Positions 30,329 to 41,402 of a stretch of 64,000 bases of DNA are shown piece by piece (the first letter of the stretch is position 1; every line of letters starts with the position of its first letter). The notes beneath the pieces are model-generated. The model ran no database searches, was not told the DNA's origin, and was given only the letters and a program-made list of their open reading frames with translations. Origin of the DNA: Dictyobacter aurantiacus (GTDB taxonomy: Bacteria; Chloroflexota; Ktedonobacteria; Ktedonobacterales; Ktedonobacteraceae). Position numbers and translations under genes: made by a program. Where the stretch lies: positions 1,984,001-2,048,000 of the forward strand of contig NZ_BIFQ01000001.1 of assembly GCF_003967515.1 (NCBI RefSeq), given 5' to 3'.

Positions 30329-30437
30329 ATATTATGTATGTGTGTAGTGTGCCGGGGCGCCGAGCGCCCCGGCACACTACACACATACATAATATGCTCA
30401 AGCTACTGCGCGCCCCGGCACACTATACACATACATA
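30329..30437. repeat. Long perfect hairpin plus partial third arm
   Basis: 32-bp perfect arms (30329-30360, 30364-30395) around the 3-nt loop CGA with GCGC on both sides. A third copy of most of the right arm, one mismatch, lies at 30410-30437. A separate hairpin CTCCGCGCC-TGC-GGCGCGGAG is just before it at 30309-30328. They sit between two minus-strand genes. Confidence 0.88.
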
Positions 30438-31865: not shown

Positions 31866-32543
31866 CTAGGAAATTTCCTGTTCGTTGAGATGGAAGGTCT
31901 GGCGCAATCTTTTGTAAGCCATGCTCAATGAAGCAGCATGGCGGCTTCGCTCCAGTGGATCGTCGGATGGAGGTCGGCGATACTCACGTAGATCGATGCC
32001 CACAGTCTTAAATGCCGCCAGTAACTGACTGGTCTCGCCGCTTAAATCAGCATGATTGGCCAGGTCTATCAGCAAGGCGGTACGCTGCTTGACAGGGAAA
32101 TCAACGATGATACGGGCCAGGGTCATAAGTACAGAGATACGCATAAGACTATCCAGGGCTATTTCAGAAGGGTCTACATCATCTCCATTTGATAAAAGGT
32201 AGGGAACCTCTCCATCCTGCGAGGTGGGGCGAATGAGCCGCAGTTCACGCCGACGCAGGTCACGAAAATGATTGTGTGCCACGGTACGCCCAAAACAAGT
32301 CATGGAGTGTATCGGCATCCCAATGCCATTTTCTACCAATCGTGTATATTTCAAGGTGCGGATAACCGCCTCTTGCAATATATCATCGGCAATATCATGT
32401 TCCTGACCATGCCACGATGTGACACCGGAAGAATAGACCCAACCTAAGATGTAGGGTCGTAATGCACTGTAGAGCTCAAGCCAAACACGATCGCTTACCG
32501 CCTGGCGATCAGTTGCCTGTACTATTGGTCGATAGACAGCCAT
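31866..32543 (-). CDS. Sigma-70-like protein, module copy 1
   Basis: 225 aa. Residues about 25-105 look like sigma region 2, with DDILQEAVIRTLKY and HNHFRDLRRRE. A region-4-like part follows (IVDFPVKQRTALLIDLA), but the helix-turn-helix is interrupted by an insert (SGETSQLLAAFKTVGIDL) before the final helix MAYKRLRQTF. It could be a divergent ECF sigma factor or a sigma-like regulator that does not recognise -35 DNA. GGAGG precedes the ATG by 9 nt. It is divergent from the MerR-GAF regulator, with 587 bp between them. It has a clear paralogue at 36096. Confidence 0.75.
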   Translation of the reverse strand: MAVYRPIVQATDRQAVSDRVWLELYSALRPYILGWVYSSGVTSWHGQEHDIADDILQEAVIRTLKYTRLVENGIGMPIHSMTCFGRTVAHNHFRDLRRRELRLIRPTSQDGEVPYLLSNGDDVDPSEIALDSLMRISVLMTLARIIVDFPVKQRTALLIDLANHADLSGETSQLLAAFKTVGIDLREYRRPPSDDPLERSRHAASLSMAYKRLRQTFHLNEQEIS

Positions 32544-33130
32544 GAGTTGTAACCTCCAGGAAAGACAGGCTATCTTAGAAACCTATCAACCCTTTCTAAA
32601 TATGGCGCTCACCTAATGCTTGCTTCTGGTTACTGAGCTTTGTTCTGCTTTCATCACTTACTTACTTCAACCTACACCCACAAAGCTTCACATAAAACTC
32701 TTCAAACATCTCATATTATTGACTTATCCTTATCAATTTTATAGCATACTAGAGTTAGTAATTCAATGTTTTCTTAGGATCAGCTGATATTTCTATGAGC
32801 TTTATCCAAAAAAATCAATATTTATAAGCATCCAGGCAAACATTTTCGGCCATATTTCAACATATTTTCTGACCTTACCATAAATTAACCTGACTTTATT
32901 CTGAATTTGGGATGGGAAAGCATAAAAAAATCTTACCCTGCAGCGTTCTTTTTAGAGGAAGGCAAACAGGGATACGGTGATTTTTTTCGCGCATGGAGAC
33001 AGTTTTTTTAATATACCATTTGCCAAAACGTCATATACAGGTGTACAAGCTATTCGAGCGTGTGTTATGATAGGCAGGAATTCAAAATACATGGGCTATT
33101 TCCCACTGTATTTTTTAAAGGAACATGGTG
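32544..33130. promoter_or_regulatory. AT-rich divergent control region, module copy 1
   Basis: 587 bp with no ORF, clearly richer in A and T than its neighbours. A candidate promoter for the regulator is TGTACA (33042-33047), 18 bp, TATGAT (33066-33071) with an extended TG. AAAGGA lies 8 nt before the ATG at 33131. No clear promoter for the sigma-like gene was seen. Confidence 0.5.
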
Positions 33131-35296
33131 ATGGATGAGCGCAACCTACAGCGGATTGCCAGACATCTTAAAGATGAGGCCGCACAACGACGTGTTCATC
33201 ACAACATCCAGCGAGGGCGCAACGAGGTCACAGTGACAATAGGACGGGCATCGCGTCTCTTCGGCTTTAGTGAAAGCCAGCTACGCGATTGGGAGAAGAT
33301 GGGGTTGATTAAGCCGATACGCCCACGAGAAGATACCGAGTCACGGCAGATTACAGGCCAACGGCAGTATTCATTTGCTGAGCTAGATAAACTCGCGATC
33401 ATTCGCGAGTTGCTTGATGAGGCCCACCTGACTCCAGGGGCAATCCCTCCAAATATCAATGAGATCTGGTCAGCATTGGCTTCACCGGCATCTGCGCTAT
33501 CGGCGCAGGTGTTCGAACAAGAGGCGGATAACCAATCCGTGACCATGGCTACATCATCACCAGATGATAATATCAATAAGCGTGTGACGCTGGCGTATCG
33601 TGATCTTACCGCCTGGCGCTTCTATGCTTCGCGGGTGCTCTGGCTGGCCTTGCTGCTGGTCTATGAAAATATCCCGGGCTTTTACGCTGGCCTCGTGCTG
33701 CCTGCCCAGGATTACCAGGGCGATGAGATTTTACGCGATCCCGCCAACATTAGCATGGTCGGGCCATCACTGGTCGGCTGGCTGGGCCAGACAGGCTCAT
33801 TTTTTACCTTCTTGACCCCTGCCCCGGCCTTCGAGTATCCCAGCGATTATATTGTACTGCCATTATGCCCCCCCGACTTGCGTATGCAATTACCAGGCTC
33901 GATCGCCTATCGGACCCTGGTGGTGGTGCAGCGCGACGAGATCCAGCATATCCGGCAGCAGGAAAAGGCCATTCGCACGGTGTTGCGCCTGCTGGAACCC
34001 CTTTATGAGGATCAACAGCAATGGGAGCATTATATGGGCGATGGTCGGCAGGATGTCATTACGCCAGCAATGGATTTTACTCCCAAGCTGACAGATGCTA
34101 TCCTGACCAGCCTGGCCAATACAACGATTCGCCTGGGCGGCAAAATGTCCGACGGCCAGAGCCGCTGGCAGGACTGCTGCATTCTCCTGCCCAGTACGCA
34201 GAGCCTGCCTCTGCAGCAACGTAGCCTGGTGGTACGAGCCAAGAGCCAGCAGGCGCGTCACACCGTCGGCGTCACCTCGGTCTCTCCCGAGCGCCATGTG
34301 ACCAGCCTGAGTATCCGCGCGTACCAGAGCAGCCATATCATCTATCGGTCAGAGTTGGCCCGCGAAGATATTCTCGCTCTCCAGCGCGATCTGGAGGGTC
34401 CTATTCAGTCGAATATCGCGGTTCCTATCGGTGGCGAAAGCGGACAGCCCCTGGGCGTGCTCTATGTCACCTCTAATGAGCAGGACGCCTTCAACGAAGA
34501 AGATCAGCGCATCCTGCGTATTATAGCTAAAATTACTGAAGAACTTTTATATACCTATAAGGTTCGACAGCAGGTCGCGGACACGCTGACCGATATCCTG
34601 GAGGATCCTGCCACGGTAGATCCTCTCTTCAAAGATTTTGCTTCCGAGAGCGATTTCCTCCGCGACCTGGCGGAAATCCTGACCACCATCAAAGCGCAGG
34701 TGGAACGGGGGCAAGATCCTATGGCCTCGACCGACATCGATGGAACGGTAAAGGAGATCTCTTTTATCGCCATAGATATCGATAGTAATGTACAAGAATC
34801 GATTGCTAATAGTTATGGAGATCAGACCCTGCATAATCTAAATAAAGCCATTGGTTTACGCATCCACGATCTCTTGCCAGCACTTTTCTCCAATCACTTC
34901 AACTGCACACTCTATCATATTTATGGCAGCATCTATTGCCTCCTTCTACGTGGCTTTACGCTCGAACGTACCAAAAGCAATGCGGAACGCCTGCGGAAGG
35001 CTCTAGAGGGAAGCATCGCGGTCAAGCAATCAGAATTACCAGGTGGCACATTAACGCTACCAGATATATCAGTCCACCTCGGGGCTACCTGGTATTCATA
35101 TGAAAAACTTGCGGAATTTTTATCCCCTCGCCATATGCGGTCGGTGACCGATGTGCGCGCAACCCTTTACCATTCGTTGGATTTCGCGCTCAAGCTCGGA
35201 ACGGATACCGGGGGCAATATCATCTATGCCTGGGATCCAGTCACCCAGACCTATATGCCGTATCAATCTGGCGAGGAGCAACAACAAAAAAAATAG
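33131..35296 (+). CDS. MerR-HTH / GAF / degenerate GGDEF regulator, module copy 1
   Basis: 721 aa from the third codon of the open frame, where AAAGGA is 8 nt away. About 33-105 is a MerR-type winged helix (TIGRASRLFGFSESQL, then RQYSFAELDKL). About 150-300 is a divergent GAF-like region and about 325-480 a clearer GAF domain (IAVPIGGESGQPLGVLYV). About 545-705 resembles a GGDEF domain (FIAIDIDSNVQESI), but the signature is replaced by HIYGSIY, so cyclase activity is not expected. It is likely a one-component DNA-binding sensor of a small ligand. A paralogue lies at 37295; the P-loop gene starts 42 bp later. Confidence 0.8.
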   Translation: MDERNLQRIARHLKDEAAQRRVHHNIQRGRNEVTVTIGRASRLFGFSESQLRDWEKMGLIKPIRPREDTESRQITGQRQYSFAELDKLAIIRELLDEAHLTPGAIPPNINEIWSALASPASALSAQVFEQEADNQSVTMATSSPDDNINKRVTLAYRDLTAWRFYASRVLWLALLLVYENIPGFYAGLVLPAQDYQGDEILRDPANISMVGPSLVGWLGQTGSFFTFLTPAPAFEYPSDYIVLPLCPPDLRMQLPGSIAYRTLVVVQRDEIQHIRQQEKAIRTVLRLLEPLYEDQQQWEHYMGDGRQDVITPAMDFTPKLTDAILTSLANTTIRLGGKMSDGQSRWQDCCILLPSTQSLPLQQRSLVVRAKSQQARHTVGVTSVSPERHVTSLSIRAYQSSHIIYRSELAREDILALQRDLEGPIQSNIAVPIGGESGQPLGVLYVTSNEQDAFNEEDQRILRIIAKITEELLYTYKVRQQVADTLTDILEDPATVDPLFKDFASESDFLRDLAEILTTIKAQVERGQDPMASTDIDGTVKEISFIAIDIDSNVQESIANSYGDQTLHNLNKAIGLRIHDLLPALFSNHFNCTLYHIYGSIYCLLLRGFTLERTKSNAERLRKALEGSIAVKQSELPGGTLTLPDISVHLGATWYSYEKLAEFLSPRHMRSVTDVRATLYHSLDFALKLGTDTGGNIIYAWDPVTQTYMPYQSGEEQQQKK

Positions 35297-35338
35297 ATAC
35301 ATACCAAAGCGCAGATGGAAGATGGAGGAGTGTGATTG

Positions 35339-36010
35339 ATGTTAGCAAAGGTATTCGTTTTAGGGCGTCCTGGTAGTGGCAAGACAACGGCAATTTATCA
35401 TCTTTTGAATGTAACACGCCAGCGCGGCTATACAGCCCTGAATATAGATGACTATGGCATTCTTTACCACATGTCACGCGATGAAAAACACCATGAGCAA
35501 TTTCGCCGCACAGCTTATGATGGCTTCGATGTGCTGGATCTCTCGGTCTTTGATGTGGCCCTGCAGAGGTTAGAACAACAGGTACGCGCGCTCTCAGCAC
35601 ATGAAGACAACGGCATCATTACCATTGAGTTCGCGCGCAACGATTATGCCCAGGCCCTGCATCAGTTTAGTCCCGATTTCTTGCAAGATGCGTATATATT
35701 CTTTGTCGACGCAGACCTCAATACGTGCATTGAGCGCATTTATCAACGCATCGCCGGGCCACAGACCAATAGCGGGCACTTCGTTTCGGACTATATTATG
35801 CATACATATTATAGCTATGATAACTGGCCCTATGTCAGCACCCAACTGGCCTCGACCTATCACATCACGAAAACAATCGAGACGTTTCGCAATACAGGCA
35901 GCGTCCCACAGCTACTAACCAGGGTTGAGCAGTTCGCGGAACACATCTTCAACACCGAATTTGAACGGCCAGCCCCGGCCGATTCTTTAAAACAACTGGC
36001 GCATGCCTGA
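35339..36010 (+). CDS. Small P-loop NTPase/kinase-like protein, module copy 1
   Basis: 223 aa from the ATG at 35339 (GGAGGAG 8 nt upstream). Walker A is GRPGSGKTT at residues 8-16. A likely acidic-strand motif is ITIEFARNDY near residue 98. VDADLNTCIERIYQR resembles the lid region of nucleotide kinases. No HTH, membrane segment or toxin-family catalytic motif is visible. It may phosphorylate a nucleotide or other small molecule; the substrate is unknown. It is in an operon with the preceding regulator and has a paralogue at 39663. Confidence 0.75.
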   Translation: MLAKVFVLGRPGSGKTTAIYHLLNVTRQRGYTALNIDDYGILYHMSRDEKHHEQFRRTAYDGFDVLDLSVFDVALQRLEQQVRALSAHEDNGIITIEFARNDYAQALHQFSPDFLQDAYIFFVDADLNTCIERIYQRIAGPQTNSGHFVSDYIMHTYYSYDNWPYVSTQLASTYHITKTIETFRNTGSVPQLLTRVEQFAEHIFNTEFERPAPADSLKQLAHA

Positions 36011-36020
36011 AGAAAAACGA

Positions 36021-36067
36021 AACGCCTGCGTGGCGAGAGGTAGTCTGCCTCTCGCCCGCAAGGCGTT
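36021..36067. terminator. Bidirectional terminator between the two modules
   Basis: A long imperfect hairpin (AACGCC, GCG, GGCGAGAGG with their partners) lies between the convergent P-loop gene and the second sigma-like gene. It marks the border between the two module copies. Confidence 0.8.
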
Positions 36068-36095
36068 GAAAGATTCTGCGATATCAAAACCGTTT

Positions 36096-36767
36096 TTACA
36101 CCTGTACCTGCTGCTTTAAGCGCTTGTAAGCGATGCTGCGCAAGGCGGCATCTCGACCACGAATGATCGGATCCTCGGATCGCGGTCGCCTGTATTCGCT
36201 CAACTGCAGGCCGACATCCCGCAGGGCCTGCTCTAACAACGATGGCTCACCATCTAAATCAGACATATTGGCCAGATCCGTCAGCAGGGCTACTTTCTGA
36301 CCGAGTGGGAAGCCCGCCACGATCCGGGCCACTGACACAATGATTGAGTCCAACATCAAGCGGTCCAGCGCAATCTGGGAGGCATCAACAATCTCATGTG
36401 GTCCCGCCGTGACATCCAATGCCTGCTGATCATTCTCGTTGAGGGTTGGACGCACCAGACACCAGTCCTTTTTACGCCAATCCCGAAAATAGTTACGCGC
36501 GATCACCCGGCTCAGTGCCTTCAAAGAACCTATGGGAGACATCTCGCCACGAGCAGCGCGCTGTTGATAACGAAATGTCCGCACGACAGCTTCATGAGCA
36601 ATGTCTTCCGCGATCTCCCGGTGCTGACCATACCAGGATGAGACGCGAGAGTCGCGCACCCACATTTCAACCAGTGGCAGTAACCAGTTATACAGGTCAT
36701 ACCACACTTGCCCATCCGCCATATCGTAGCTGCTGCCCTGGTGGGTAGATGTTGCATCTGTTGCCAT
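36096..36767 (-). CDS. Sigma-70-like protein, module copy 2
   Basis: 223 aa, paralogue of the protein at 31866. Region-2-like part: EDIAHEAVVRTFRY and ARNYFRDWRKKD. C-terminal part: IVAGFPLGQKVALLTDLA, then an insert and AYKRLKQQVQV. Shared unusual features with copy 1 include a stretch LxEYRRPxSxDP just before the last helix, absent from ordinary sigma factors. GGGAGG precedes the ATG by 8 nt. It is divergent from the second MerR-GAF gene. Confidence 0.75.
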   Translation of the reverse strand: MATDATSTHQGSSYDMADGQVWYDLYNWLLPLVEMWVRDSRVSSWYGQHREIAEDIAHEAVVRTFRYQQRAARGEMSPIGSLKALSRVIARNYFRDWRKKDWCLVRPTLNENDQQALDVTAGPHEIVDASQIALDRLMLDSIIVSVARIVAGFPLGQKVALLTDLANMSDLDGEPSLLEQALRDVGLQLSEYRRPRSEDPIIRGRDAALRSIAYKRLKQQVQV

Positions 36768-37294
36768 GAAAGTGACCTCCCGAATATGGTCTGCCTACGC
36801 CTGCGCTACAATACCGGCACGTCGCCGTTATCCACAGTTGATCACTACATTATCGCGGCAGAAAAGAGCTTTAGCACCCTTCCCTACTCTGGTTCTATCC
36901 TGTATGCACTACCCACAATATGTAAATGTTCACCAGCCCCGACAACAGAAAGAAGACTGTTCTGAAGATTGTTTACAATTAAGAAGAAAATTGCTATATT
37001 TAAAGTATATGGTACCTGAGAAGAAGTTTTTTGTCAATGGCATGAAAGAAAGTTACGCACCTCAGATAACAAAAGGTAATCTTTCTTAACTTTTCTGACG
37101 ATAGCTTTAAATTACCTGACCATCATGCATTTATCATCAGAAAAACTTATCCTATCGGAGTTTTTAACTATCCGTTGATAAAAAACCTCATATTTTTTAT
37201 TTGAAATAGGTATACAAACTAATACAATTGTGGTACTATTAAACCTGTGTTGCATCAGCCCTGAATTTTTCTCCACTTTTTCAGCGAGGCGAAG
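36768..37294. promoter_or_regulatory. AT-rich divergent control region, module copy 2
   Basis: 527 bp without an ORF. A perfect DnaA box TTATCCACA lies at 36828-36836. A good promoter for the regulator gene is TTGAAA (37201-37206), 16 bp, TACAAT (37223-37228). The region matches copy 1 in length and AT-richness, but no long shared sequence was found by eye. Confidence 0.6.
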
Positions 37295-39421
37295 ATGGAT
37301 GTGCGAAGTAAGCAATCAATACAGGAGCATTTACAAAAAGCAGATGTTCAAGAACGTATCTTGCAGAATATCCACCGAGGGCGTGATGAGGCGACGGTTA
37401 CCATCAGTCGCGCGGCCGAGCTATTTGGCATTACCGAAAATAAGTTGCGCGACTGGGAAGAATATGGCTTCCTGAATCCACTGCGCCCCGGTGGACCCAA
37501 GGGACGACGCCTGTATGCACCAGCAGAGTTAGATAAGCTGGCTATCATTCGTGAATTGATCAACGCAGGCTATGCGGCCAGCGATATTCCAGCCGATATC
37601 GATAAGCTCTGGCACACTATTCGTTCGCTGGCAGAGCTTGAGTTGGCCAGCAATGCGGCCAACCATACCCCTTCACTTACCCCACTATCACCGGTTAATG
37701 AGCTTTCGATCAATCAGCGTATTCATCAGGGACGCGATGAGCTGTTCTGGAACTTTTATATCGCGCGGGCTCTGCGTCTGGCCTTGAAGTTGATCTGTGA
37801 GGATATCCCCAATACGACGGCCGGGTTAATCCTGCCCCTCTCACCCACCGCTAACGCACAGGGGGTACAACGCATTGAGGATCTGGAGACCCTGGGGGAA
37901 TCCCTTGTGGGCTGGCTGAGTCAGAGCGGCTCATCTCATACCCTCCTGACATCTCGTCCATGGTTTCAATATACCTCTGATTTTCGCGTTGAGCATCTAC
38001 AGGAGATGCGCGCCGGTATCCCGCAGTCTGAGCAGGTATGTGATCAGACCCTGATTATTTTGCAGCGCGAGACAAGTCCGCTGACGTTAAGTAGAGAGGT
38101 GGTAAAAACGATTCAGCGCCTGCTGGAACCGCTCTATGCGGAGGTAGAGCATGTACGTGCCTCCCTGGGACCGGGCGCACGCGATAGCATCGATCCCGCC
38201 ACTGACCTCTATAATAATATGAACCATGAGGATGCCATTCTCAATGGCCTGGCAGATATGGTGATCCGACTGGGGGGCACGCTGCGCACGGGCCAGCCGC
38301 GCTGGCGCTTCTGCTGGATCTTGCTGCCGCGCGATATTTCACAACCGGCCAGTATGAGCCATCTGACGCTGAGAGCCCAGAATCAAGATGCTTTCTATAC
38401 CACCCGTCTCCCCCTCGCCGGACTGGATAAGTATACCAGCTATCCGTTTATCAGGGCCCTGTACAGCCGTCATATCATCTATGAGCCCAATATACCTGCC
38501 TCGGACGCACAGGCTATTCTGCGCGACCTGGACGTGCCTGTGCGCTCTTCTATCGCCATACCTATCTCCGGTGAAGATGGCCTGCCGCTGGGCGTGCTGC
38601 ATGTGGCCTCCCACCTGCGCGATGCCTTTAGTAAAGACGACCAACGTCTGCTACGTGTCATCTGTCGCATGGCGGAGGAGCTATTGAAAACGTACTGGAT
38701 ACGTCAGCAGGTAGCACGACATATGGGCAGCATGGTCAAAAATCCGGCCGTTATTGATACGCTGTTTGAGGGCTTTGCCTCGGAGTATGACTTTAATCAG
38801 AGTGTAGAAGGACTGCTGAAGCCGCTGCAGAGCAACCGGGGCAAGGGCGGCAAAGACAAGCTAAACGATAAAGTGGTCTCCTTTATCGCACTGGACATCG
38901 ATAAATATACGAGCCTGACCAACAAATATGGTGAACGCCTGATGCGCAATCTCACCCGAGAGGTCGGCCTGCGTATTCAGGAACAGATCCGCACCTTCTT
39001 CAAAGAATATCCCGAGTGCCAGCTCTATCATATCTACGCCGACCGCTTCTTTATCCTGCTCAAGAATACGTCTCTCGAACAGACGCGCGAACACGCGGAG
39101 CGGCTGCGCATCGGGACCATGGGTCCCTACAAGCTGGATGCCCTGCGTATCTTCGCTGATCAACAGAGCCGCTCCGAAAGCCTGATAGAGATGACGGATA
39201 TCACCATGCGCTTCGGCGTCACCTCTTATCCTTATTCCAAGTTGGACGAGATTCTGCATGAGCACGCCCCCGAATATGCCATCCCCGAGGTGCGTTCGAT
39301 TATTACTTCAGCTCTGGACGTCGCCCTGGTGAAAGGACAGATAGATGGCGGCAACGTCGTCATCAGTTGGGACTACGAGCAGCGCAACTTTATTCGCTGG
39401 TCCCCTCCAAAGGCCCGGTAA
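37295..39421 (+). CDS. MerR-HTH / GAF / degenerate GGDEF regulator, module copy 2
   Basis: 708 aa, paralogue of the protein at 33131 along its whole length. MerR-type helix at about 35-100 (TISRAAELFGITENKL, then RRLYAPAELDKL). A GAF-like first region (ESLVGWLSQSGSSHTLL), then a GAF domain (IAIPISGEDGLPLGVLHV). The GGDEF-like end begins FIALDIDKYTSLTNKYG and has HIYADRF where GGDEF should be; the first Asp of the metal site is kept but the catalytic signature is lost. GAGG lies 5-6 nt before the ATG. The P-loop gene follows after 241 bp. Confidence 0.8.
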   Translation: MDVRSKQSIQEHLQKADVQERILQNIHRGRDEATVTISRAAELFGITENKLRDWEEYGFLNPLRPGGPKGRRLYAPAELDKLAIIRELINAGYAASDIPADIDKLWHTIRSLAELELASNAANHTPSLTPLSPVNELSINQRIHQGRDELFWNFYIARALRLALKLICEDIPNTTAGLILPLSPTANAQGVQRIEDLETLGESLVGWLSQSGSSHTLLTSRPWFQYTSDFRVEHLQEMRAGIPQSEQVCDQTLIILQRETSPLTLSREVVKTIQRLLEPLYAEVEHVRASLGPGARDSIDPATDLYNNMNHEDAILNGLADMVIRLGGTLRTGQPRWRFCWILLPRDISQPASMSHLTLRAQNQDAFYTTRLPLAGLDKYTSYPFIRALYSRHIIYEPNIPASDAQAILRDLDVPVRSSIAIPISGEDGLPLGVLHVASHLRDAFSKDDQRLLRVICRMAEELLKTYWIRQQVARHMGSMVKNPAVIDTLFEGFASEYDFNQSVEGLLKPLQSNRGKGGKDKLNDKVVSFIALDIDKYTSLTNKYGERLMRNLTREVGLRIQEQIRTFFKEYPECQLYHIYADRFFILLKNTSLEQTREHAERLRIGTMGPYKLDALRIFADQQSRSESLIEMTDITMRFGVTSYPYSKLDEILHEHAPEYAIPEVRSIITSALDVALVKGQIDGGNVVISWDYEQRNFIRWSPPKAR

Positions 39422-39662
39422 TCGCTCTTGAGCTTTTTCAACGATGATTTTCTATCTAAAGTATATTCCTCTACGTCCCAATAACTCTTACTCTTCCGAT
39501 TTACAGTTACCCCCCATCCCATATACGCGTTACGTGTGTATATTAGCAGTACCAGCCCTCCTCCCTCCAAGGCTTACGGCCATTCAAATGGATAGAGCTA
39601 CTGTAATTATTTATAGGTTAATTAAAGCAGAGGTGGATGGGCAGACGGGAGAACATATAGTT

Positions 39663-40403
39663 ATGGCCATCAATCTTTTTTTATTGGGACGACCCGGTTC
39701 CGGCAAATCTACGGCGGCCCATTATATCCAGTGGTTGCTTAAAAAATATCATTGGTCTGCCGTGCATATAAATGATTATCATTTTTTATTGAACCAGTTC
39801 AGGGAGGACATTCATCAGCGCAAGTTTAAACCAAGTGGTTGTGGCGGCTTTGATGTGCTGGACTTTTCTGTTCTGGATGAAGTGCTGCGCGACCTTGAAC
39901 ATGAGGCACAAAACTACGCGGCCCATCCACGTACCGTGCTCCTGCTGGAATTCGCACGTAATGACTATATGCAGGCCCTGCGACAGTTTCAGACCGATTT
40001 CTTGCGGAATGCCTGCTTTCTCTTTTTTGAGGCTGACCTGGATACCTGCGTTGATCGTGTCTATACGCGTGCCTATCACCCAACCAATGCGGATGACCAT
40101 TTTATCTCGGAAGAGATGTTACGCAGTTATTATCATGAGGACAACAGGGTTCATCTGATTTATCAATTGCTTTCTAGCTACGGTGTCGGAGAAAACAATA
40201 TATGTGTGATCCATAATAACAGTACCCGGCGCAACTTCTATGAACAGGTGCGCCGCTTTACAGTGGACCAATTACTCAGTCCTGCCAAAGAACACCAGCA
40301 CCCTGTCGGGATCCACACGGCAGACCACGAGTATGCACCTGCTTATACCAAACACCCGACATCCGGCCGAGCTTATGAACGCCGACAACGGCAGAAAATG
40401 TAG
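39663..40403 (+). CDS. Small P-loop NTPase/kinase-like protein, module copy 2
   Basis: 246 aa from the ATG at 39663; a frame open to 39444 has no good site. Walker A is GRPGSGKST. Shared with copy 1 are GFDVLDFSVLDEVL, LLEFARNDYMQAL, FFEADLDTCVDRVY and the order of motifs. The last 30 residues are polar and differ from copy 1. The substrate is unknown. GGGAG lies about 13 nt upstream, a long spacing, so the start is less sure. Confidence 0.72.
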   Translation: MAINLFLLGRPGSGKSTAAHYIQWLLKKYHWSAVHINDYHFLLNQFREDIHQRKFKPSGCGGFDVLDFSVLDEVLRDLEHEAQNYAAHPRTVLLLEFARNDYMQALRQFQTDFLRNACFLFFEADLDTCVDRVYTRAYHPTNADDHFISEEMLRSYYHEDNRVHLIYQLLSSYGVGENNICVIHNNSTRRNFYEQVRRFTVDQLLSPAKEHQHPVGIHTADHEYAPAYTKHPTSGRAYERRQRQKM

Positions 40404-40481: not shown

Positions 40482-41402
40482 GTGGCATCTACACATACTC
40501 CATTTGATAAGCTAACTCCGATCCATCCTAATCGTCGTATTACGTTAGAAACCGGGAAACAACCGATAGCGCCACGCATGATTGATCTTCTGGTGCCGCT
40601 CGGCTTTGGGCAGCGCGCGTTGATCGTCGCTCCCCCTCAGGCAGGCAAGACGACGATTCTGCGTCAGGTCGCGGCAGCAACCATGCAAAATTTTCCTGAG
40701 GCCCGCCTCTATCTCTGCCTGGTCGATGAGCGACCAGAGGAGGTCACCGACTGGCGCATGGAGGTGCGCGGACCCCAGGTTCGCATGTATGCTTCTAGCT
40801 TTGATCAGCAGTCCTCCAAACATGGACGCATCGTTGAGCAGGCCCTGCAGGATGCCAGACGCGAAGTGGCCCAAGGACATGACGTCGTTATTTTACTGGA
40901 TTCTTTGACACGTTTAGCACGCGCCCATAATCTGAATACCGATATGTGGCAGACACCGCGCAACCAGCGTGGAGGCTATGGGAGCCGCACGCTGTCGGGC
41001 GGCATCGACGCCCACGCTCTTGAGATTGGACGCCGCGTCTTCGGAGCCGCCCGTGCCCTGGAGGAAGGTGGCAGCCTGACCATTGTGGCTAGCTGCCTGG
41101 TTGAGACAGGTAGCCGGCTGGATGAGGTTGTCTACGAAGAATTTAAAGGCACGGGCAACCTTGAAATACGCCTCTCGCGCGAACTGGCCGACCGGCGCAT
41201 CTTTCCGGCCATCGACGTTACCACGTCCAGTACGCGCCAGGAGGAGCGTCTGCTCTCATCGGAAGAGCTACGTGCCATGTCTATCGTTCGTCGCCGCATG
41301 GCCGATATCCCTCGTCGCGACGCCGCGGAACAGGTCATCCAGCTCTTCGCCAAAACCCCCACCAACGCCCAACTCGTAGAGGCAATTCTCAAACAAGGCT
41401 AA
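40482..41402 (+). CDS. Rho-type ATPase without the N-terminal RNA-binding domain
   Basis: 306 aa, against about 420 for normal Rho. It begins [18 protein letters not shown], which corresponds to the junction just after the OB-fold of standard Rho. The motor domain is complete: Walker [23 protein letters not shown], Walker [14 protein letters not shown], the secondary RNA site region [27 protein letters not shown] and EEFKGTGN. It starts at GTG with TAGGAG 11 nt upstream; no OB-fold is encoded in any frame just upstream. It could be a specialised termination factor or another RNA motor. A possible promoter TTGACG lies at 40417. Confidence 0.88.

Follow-up and report, generated by a model that had tools for sequence, protein, structure and literature searches.

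What keeps a sigma-like gene, the gene of a DNA-binding regulator and that of a P-loop kinase-like protein together, in the same order, twice in succession on one chromosome? The question is raised by positions 31866-40403 of the window, that is, of the whole 64,000-nucleotide stretch of Dictyobacter aurantiacus analysed here (contig NZ_BIFQ01000001.1, positions 1,984,001 to 2,048,000). Two sets lie head to tail in this locus, each consisting of SIG (minus strand), a divergent protein resembling extracytoplasmic function (ECF) sigma factors, REG (plus strand), a regulator with a MerR helix-turn-helix (HTH), a GAF domain and a degenerate GGDEF domain, and PLP (plus strand), a P-loop protein with the predicted fold of nucleoside-monophosphate (NMP) kinases. 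The three genes form a real conserved module, and the claim of their linkage is strong. Tentatively, as a serious possibility that falls short of being probable, the locus can be read as a vertically inherited three-component transcription switch of the Ktedonobacteraceae, present in two ancient paralogous copies, with a mechanism that is conjectural. The main features are the following.

31866..32543, minus strand: SIG copy 1, ECF-sigma-like protein of 225 amino acids, 44% identical to SIG copy 2
32544..33124, no strand: divergent AT-rich region of copy 1, 581 bp, guanine-cytosine (GC) fraction 0.36
33125..35296, plus strand: REG copy 1, MerR HTH, GAF and degenerate GGDEF, 723 amino acids
35339..36010, plus strand: PLP copy 1, P-loop protein with predicted NMP-kinase fold
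36021..36067, no strand: hairpin between the convergent genes PLP1 and SIG2
36096..36767, minus strand: SIG copy 2, ECF-sigma-like protein of 223 amino acids
36768..37294, no strand: divergent AT-rich region of copy 2, 527 bp, GC 0.38
37295..39421, plus strand: REG copy 2, MerR HTH, GAF and degenerate GGDEF, 708 amino acids
39663..40403, plus strand: PLP copy 2, P-loop protein with predicted NMP-kinase fold, frame open from 39444

An initial annotation, made from the sequence of the window alone, described two copies of one three-gene order, paralogous in all three genes and each with a long AT-rich divergent region. All six genes were found at the coordinates that it gave, and the description holds: protein alignments yield 44% identity for SIG1/SIG2 (214 columns, E 3e-60), 38% for REG1/REG2 (719 columns, E 2e-157) and 37% for PLP1/PLP2 (201 columns, E 3e-47), and the divergent regions have the lengths and composition listed above, with GC of 0.46-0.60 in most 500-base windows around them. 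The motifs quoted in that annotation are present, except that copy-2 PLP reads GRPGSGKS and not GRPGSGKT. The start of copy-1 PLP is probably ATG 35339, and that of copy-2 PLP probably ATG 39663 rather than 39444, because the homologues begin there. In the host genome (8.88 Mb), REG matches are confined to these two copies, and a genome search found neither a third PLP nor a third close SIG; the third-ranked match of the SIG profile (E 4e-4) is a canonical ECF sigma gene (L241).

Linkage and distribution of the three genes

On 32 stretches, 36 REG frames longer than 1,500 bases were mapped, 34 of them in the family set (f1) that is called Ktedonobacteraceae here and takes in Thermogemmatispora, a genus placed in a separate order in PMC6497799 (available in part). 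SIG is located divergently upstream of REG in all 34 f1 copies (23 genomes), with gaps of 283-691 bp, or 911 bp where a stop breaks the REG piece; G026 has a split SIG (copy 1, two separate frames, L107:4561-5484), and in G030 a contig end cuts off another. PLP lies downstream of REG in 31 of the 34; the misses are G041, where the contig ends and PLP is found on another contig, copy 1 of G031, and the middle copy of G030 with its broken REG. Of its three REG genes, G030 has one with an internal stop (L112:11707-13809), and G020, G022 and G027 each carry two tandem PLP genes. The conserved co-occurrence of the three families that the initial annotation proposed to look for is thus confirmed (34/34 for SIG with REG, 31/34 for PLP). 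Its proposition that the set is one unit, which the families occurring apart would contradict, fares less evenly: the linkage in f1 supports it, and G001 without SIG, G012 with REG alone and SIG paralogues elsewhere in several genomes count against it.

Among the 47 genomes of the class searched with profiles, REG was matched in 26, SIG in 25 and PLP in 24. REG is present in 23 of the 29 f1 genomes; in two of the others, G021 and G044, a SIG gene is situated close to the edge of a contig, and in the remaining four, G028 (99% complete), G029 (83%), G045 (76%) and G046 (87%), all three families are absent at the thresholds used. Outside f1, REG and PLP occur in G001, where a NUDIX gene divergent from REG occupies the place of SIG (L095:6416-6898), REG occurs in G012, and an N-terminal piece of REG in G016, where the frame runs past the contig end. 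In a draw of 400 Chloroflexota genomes, REG was found in 26 genomes, every one in Ktedonobacteria, SIG in 25 and PLP in 26, with the qualification that at most 2 or 7 candidates were scored per genome, so that weak relatives could be missed. Judging from the class and phylum searches, REG and this group of SIG proteins are confined to Ktedonobacteria, as far as searched. PLP has wider distant kin: stand-alone relatives were detected outside the class in two genomes, G056 (E 7e-14, L243:3855-4601) and G396 (E 2e-15, L242:3478-4416), with no REG or SIG beside them in stretches of 6.2 and 8.0 kb, respectively.

The chromosomal surroundings are conserved as well. A gene for an M20 peptidase lies on one flank of the module in 19 of the 32 mapped stretches (three of these 19 without any REG), and on the other flank there are genes for a Rho-like ATPase (16/32), a zinc-ribbon-like protein (17/32) and a pyrimidine nucleoside phosphorylase (19/32); the Rho-like and zinc-ribbon-like genes were recognised by eye, and the latter has no Pfam match. 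Since these flanking genes recur in 16-19 of the 32 stretches, the module is evidently inherited at one chromosomal place. A mobile element was considered and ruled out, given the fixed neighbours and the lack of a plasmid match for REG copy 1 and of a match to viral-contig patterns for PLP copy 1. In the window, the gene of the Rho-like ATPase (40482-41402, 306 amino acids) matches only the nucleotide-binding family of ATP synthase alpha/beta subunits in Pfam, and no RNA-binding domain was matched in it.

The same recurrence of the four flanking genes, together with the presence of REG in G001, where SIG is missing, and in G012, where neither partner accompanies it, would also fit an explanation in which the three genes are conserved neighbours with no joint mechanism, held together by slow chromosomal rearrangement. 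We consider this rather unlikely: the set is doubled in three genus codes and the flanking genes occur once per stretch, the divergent order is kept in every f1 copy, and the three families are jointly absent from four f1 genomes, three of which are only 76-87% complete.

Age of the two copies

In the REG tree (midpoint-rooted for drawing only; all trees exclude frames shorter than 180 amino acids), Dictyobacter copy 1 is placed in one clade and Dictyobacter copy 2 in another, and both clades also hold Ktedonobacter and other genera; the single copies of Thermogemmatispora and G020 branch outside both. A constraint joining the two Dictyobacter copies is rejected by the approximately unbiased (AU) test (p-AU 4e-7; groups in the clade tests were named after inspection of the tree), which rules out a recent tandem duplication. 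Because each REG clade spans several genera and the joining of the Dictyobacter copies is rejected, the duplication, by the tree evidence, predates the genus. Across genera, the SIG tree recovers the copy-2 clade (97/94) and the PLP tree the copy-1 clade (88/97).

Domains of the three proteins

The protein alignments, which exclude near-duplicates, a single broken gene and those genes that lie at the end of a contig, comprise 30 of 36 REG, 31 of 35 PLP and 32 of 38 SIG sequences, the latter with stand-alone paralogues included; the alignment of the REG C-terminal domain comprises 20 of 36. Domain and residue analysis agrees with the initial annotation on the MerR and GAF domains and the degenerate GGDEF domain of REG: MerR_1 and GAF_2 are matched in all 30 rows, and at E 0.01 the GGDEF model is matched in 17 of them. 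The nearest solved HTH chains are those of the MerR-type regulators GlnR and TnrA (E 1e-10 to 2e-8; chains of 82-125 residues), which are short proteins that, unlike REG, are not known to contain a GAF or GGDEF domain; BrlR is also among the matches. The predicted model of REG (predicted local distance difference test, pLDDT, 82; predicted template-modelling score, pTM, 0.61) consists of the HTH, a long helix, an alpha/beta domain, GAF and a GGDEF fold, in this order. A second GAF domain was tried for residues 136-300, and an hhalign comparison with the GAF part of Pfam gave no support, so that this domain is left unnamed. In a Foldseek search with the model, cyclase and phosphodiesterase structures with GGDEF domains rank first, with template-modelling (TM) scores that are low over the whole chain because only part of it matches; a profile match to DosC (E 1.6e-5) likewise points to the GGDEF fold.

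The I-site, RxxD, sits five residues before the GGDEF motif. The motif GG(D/E)EF is intact in none of the 20 rows (mostly Y-A-D-R-F, with E replaced by R in 18), which rules out an active diguanylate cyclase, and the I-site aspartate is present in none (the position is C, Y or I), which rules out a sensor that binds cyclic di-GMP (c-di-GMP) through this site. As this alignment shows, the REG GGDEF domain has lost both the catalytic motif and the I-site; both aspartates of the D-x-D strand are invariant.

These data bear on the idea that REG acts alone, as a one-component regulator of the MerR type that senses c-di-GMP or GTP, with SIG as one of its targets and PLP as an independent nucleotide enzyme. 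REG is the most widespread of the three families in the class (26 of 47 genomes, compared with 25 for SIG and 24 for PLP) and reaches G012 and G016, and BrlR, among its HTH matches, is a c-di-GMP-binding MerR protein. The absence of the I-site aspartate in all 20 rows argues against a GGDEF domain that binds c-di-GMP in the classical way, and in G001, which has lost SIG, PLP remains beside REG; on balance, we regard this explanation as unlikely.

SIG is best described, on profile evidence, as a divergent ECF-sigma-like family in which sigma region 2 is detectable across the family rather than in each member. Sigma70_r2 is matched in 15 of the 32 rows at E 0.5 (best 1e-8), and the triad proteins at L113:11593 (35.3 bits) and L117 (32.7 bits), as well as the stand-alone protein L102 (24.2 bits), score above the Pfam cut-off of 24. 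When rows were scanned singly, 7 of 17 triad SIG proteins gave any match; of the two in the window, copy 1 gives a marginal hit to Sigma70_r2 (E 0.093) and copy 2 no Pfam match but weak hits to ECF models (best E 0.001). Such models reach 23 of the 32 rows at an E threshold of 0.1, and NF058625 itself is matched in 23 of 32. As a positive control in the region-4 scan, the canonical ECF protein L241 gives r4_2 at 5e-12, and an hhalign comparison of the SIG profile with it (probability 95.7) extends across region 2 as far as the beginning of region 4. A search of solved structures with SIG identifies SigL (E 0.011) and nothing stronger. A second divergent sigma-like family (L235-L239, L240), which the SIG profile detects at E 1e-8 to 1e-10, is present in Ktedonobacter, Thermosporothrix and G027.

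Stand-alone SIG paralogues are found near a TIR-nSTAND1 gene (L099:6446-7189), near WD40 genes with an HTH-like and a P-loop part recognised by eye (L100:4297-4959 and L102:6538-7203) and near an HTH-NB-ARC-TPR gene with one gene between (L103:6055-6879). That a STAND- or WD40-type gene lies near 4 of the 8 stand-alone SIG loci examined would be in line with the module being an anti-phage defence or STAND-linked system, as would matches to PADLOC models of the MADS defence system in a scan of the six module proteins (mad1 for the REG HTH, E 1.8e-8 and 9.7e-6; mad8 for copy-1 PLP, 8.6e-4). Each of these PADLOC matches spans no more than a short HTH or P-loop stretch, and the module keeps a fixed place among metabolic neighbours, so a defence function seems extremely improbable.

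The predicted model of PLP (pLDDT 89.5) has UMP-CMP kinase as its top Foldseek match (E 1.1e-8, TM 0.53/0.60), and UMP-CMP and adenylate kinases head the best 50 of 419 matches at E 0.001, with TM-scores of 0.42-0.68 and identities of 10-21% within these 50. These fold matches uphold the initial description of PLP as a kinase-like P-loop protein, for which an NMP-kinase fold is predicted and in which the P-loop is retained. The G, P, G and GK positions of the P-loop are invariant in the 31 rows, as are E-F-x-R and R138. The PLP profile pairs E-F-A-R with G-F-P-R of human UMP-CMP kinase, followed by an R...R...DD stretch; the whole-sequence E-value is 3e-6, and single stretches are weak (0.09 and 0.7). 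PLP thus resembles UMP-CMP and adenylate kinases in fold, P-loop and arginine positions, and differs from them in its low identity and in having EFAR instead of GFPR. Curated cut-offs were not reached by the two copies for either AAA_33 (26.9 and 24.2 bits against 27) or UMP_CMP_kin_fam (25.3 and 27 against 207.6). Some rows point elsewhere: the Pfam Zeta_toxin model is matched in 7 of 31 at E 0.01 (best 1.2e-5), as would be expected if PLP were a regulatory or zeta-toxin-like kinase restrained by REG and SIG. With NMP kinases heading the best 50 Foldseek matches, no zeta toxin among these, and a fixed chromosomal place, we consider such a role very improbable.

Divergent regions and a possible switch

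The two divergent regions share a single short and weak match (31 bp, E 0.03). They were aligned separately, copy 1 in 5 genus rows and copy 2 in 5 genus rows plus G036, and the conservation of 25-bp windows was compared with the 99% level of column shuffles, which is a mild test because shuffles break the correlation between neighbours. Islands stand out on both sides of each region.

32737..32785, minus strand: promoter-like island on the SIG1 side; 32737-32761 conserved at 0.94 (5 rows) against a 99% shuffle level of 0.86
33023..33072, plus strand: promoter-like island on the REG1 side, TGTACA-18-TATGAT; 25-bp windows at 0.98 and 0.87 against 0.86
36983..37038, minus strand: promoter-like island on the SIG2 side, TTGACA-17-TACCAT; windows at 0.93 and 0.89 (6 rows) against 0.78
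37211..37241, plus strand: REG2-side motif TATACAA-N14-GGTACTATTA; 37212-37236 conserved at 0.82 against 0.78, exact in 9 copy-2-type loci

The window adjoining 32737-32761 reaches 0.81, below the shuffle level of 0.86, and a further conserved island of copy 1 is located directly at the SIG start (32545-32569). Promoter-like hits are at the chance level (11 against 12.3, standard deviation 3.3), the REG1-side and SIG2-side pairs being among them. The form TATACAA-N14/15-G[GT]TACTAT occurs without mismatch at 9 of the 13 copy-2-type loci, in five genus codes. A search of 29 genomes with the REG2-side motif gave 10 exact matches, 9 of which are the source REG promoters, and 2 with the reversed control; the motif was drawn from those loci, and therefore only the lack of other sites is informative. 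With a single match beyond the source promoters, no regulon defined by this motif was found. MerR operators contain a dyad in a long promoter spacer of 19-20 bp; the promoter-like pairs found here have spacers of 16-18 bp, and the scan covers no longer ones.

The initial annotation placed a terminator at the border of the two sets. There is indeed a strong hairpin at 36021-36067 (plus strand -38.3 kcal/mol, z -6.9; minus strand -34.5, z -6.8), with a T-rich tail, as seen by eye, on the minus-strand side only; the terminator scan, which gave 13 hits against 7.6 by chance (standard deviation 2.4), did not list it. Elsewhere in the window, a perfect 32-nucleotide inverted repeat with a 3-nucleotide loop (30329-30395) resembles repetitive extragenic palindromes or miniature inverted-repeat transposable elements; its core occurs a third time with 1 mismatch at 30410-30437, and no further copy was found within the window at 3 mismatches.

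If the locus is a three-component switch, a REG dimer would bind the divergent region and control how sig is transcribed in one direction and reg, together with plp, in the other. The GAF and dead GGDEF part of REG would sense a nucleotide-like ligand and may also be in direct contact with the sigma protein, so as to hold or release it; PLP would phosphorylate the ligand or its precursor and so reset the switch. The idea of a contact between REG and SIG follows a precedent: in Streptomyces, RmdB binds sigma-WhiG via its GGDEF domain, independently of the enzymatic activity of RmdB (PMC13232838, available in part).

Several observations weigh against this switch. The copy-1 SIG proteins are not recovered as one clade (a constraint that forces them into one is not rejected, p 0.12), and the copy-2 PLP proteins form two unjoined groups, Dictyobacter and the other genera. 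In G019, SIG groups with copy 2 (grouping with copy 1: p-AU 0.02) and REG and PLP with copy 1; this placement, like that of G027, which has one REG yet one PLP of each copy type, is uncertain because of long branches. G001 keeps REG and PLP without SIG, G012 has REG alone, the own PLP is missing at G031 copy 1 and at the G030 middle copy (REG broken), SIG paralogues exist elsewhere in several genomes, and unrelated neighbour genes are conserved too. The distance between REG and PLP is about 210-480 bp in copy-2-type loci, so that co-transcription is not obvious. No conserved MerR-type dyad was seen in the alignments of the divergent regions, read by eye, and no region-4 model was matched in the 32 SIG rows at E 0.5.

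A more specific version of the switch seems quite improbable. According to it, the module would be a self-contained nucleotide-signalling unit that does not use c-di-GMP, in which a MerR-fused dead GGDEF domain binds a dedicated sigma factor directly and thereby gates it. The ligand would be made or removed by a dedicated enzyme with an NMP-kinase fold, and the two copies would serve as a pair of tunable switches when mycelial Ktedonobacteraceae develop.

Several known systems share features with the module. The RmdB/sigma-WhiG/RsiG system resembles the proposed switch in that a GGDEF domain contacts a sigma factor and the host is mycelial and sporulating; RmdB, which carries a GGDEF domain as well as an EAL motif, is a phosphodiesterase, and the available part of PMC13232838 makes no mention of a MerR HTH or an NMP-kinase-like partner. 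In the MlrA-DgcM-PdeR system of Escherichia coli, the MerR-like MlrA likewise has a GGDEF protein as its partner, the co-activator DgcM (PMC5052742, available in part); those are separate proteins with an active cyclase and a phosphodiesterase, whereas REG is one fused protein with a dead GGDEF domain. PopA-type degenerate effectors likewise have a GGDEF fold without the catalytic motif, but PopA, according to the same partial source, keeps the I-site that REG lacks. SIG is similar to ECF sigma factors in its detectable region 2 and its match to ECF models such as NF058625, and differs in that region 4 is matched in 0 of 32 rows. No such module is described in the titles and abstract beginnings obtained in searches of open-licence literature; as far as searched, it is undescribed and assembled from known kinds of domains.

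Ktedonobacteria have a mycelial growth form and, much as in actinomycetes, produce aerial mycelium and spores (PMC6497799). No paper on the control of their mycelium formation or sporulation was among those listed in the literature searches, and the word "sigma" is absent from the available part of PMC6497799. From the host group and the shared distribution of the genes within one clade, a role of the module in differentiation or sporulation can be guessed. The module is a concrete candidate regulator in these bacteria, being, as far as searched, specific to this group, located at one fixed place and present in two old copies in three genus codes; if the proposed switch is real, the contact between GGDEF domains and sigma factors would extend to a protein with a DNA-binding domain of its own.

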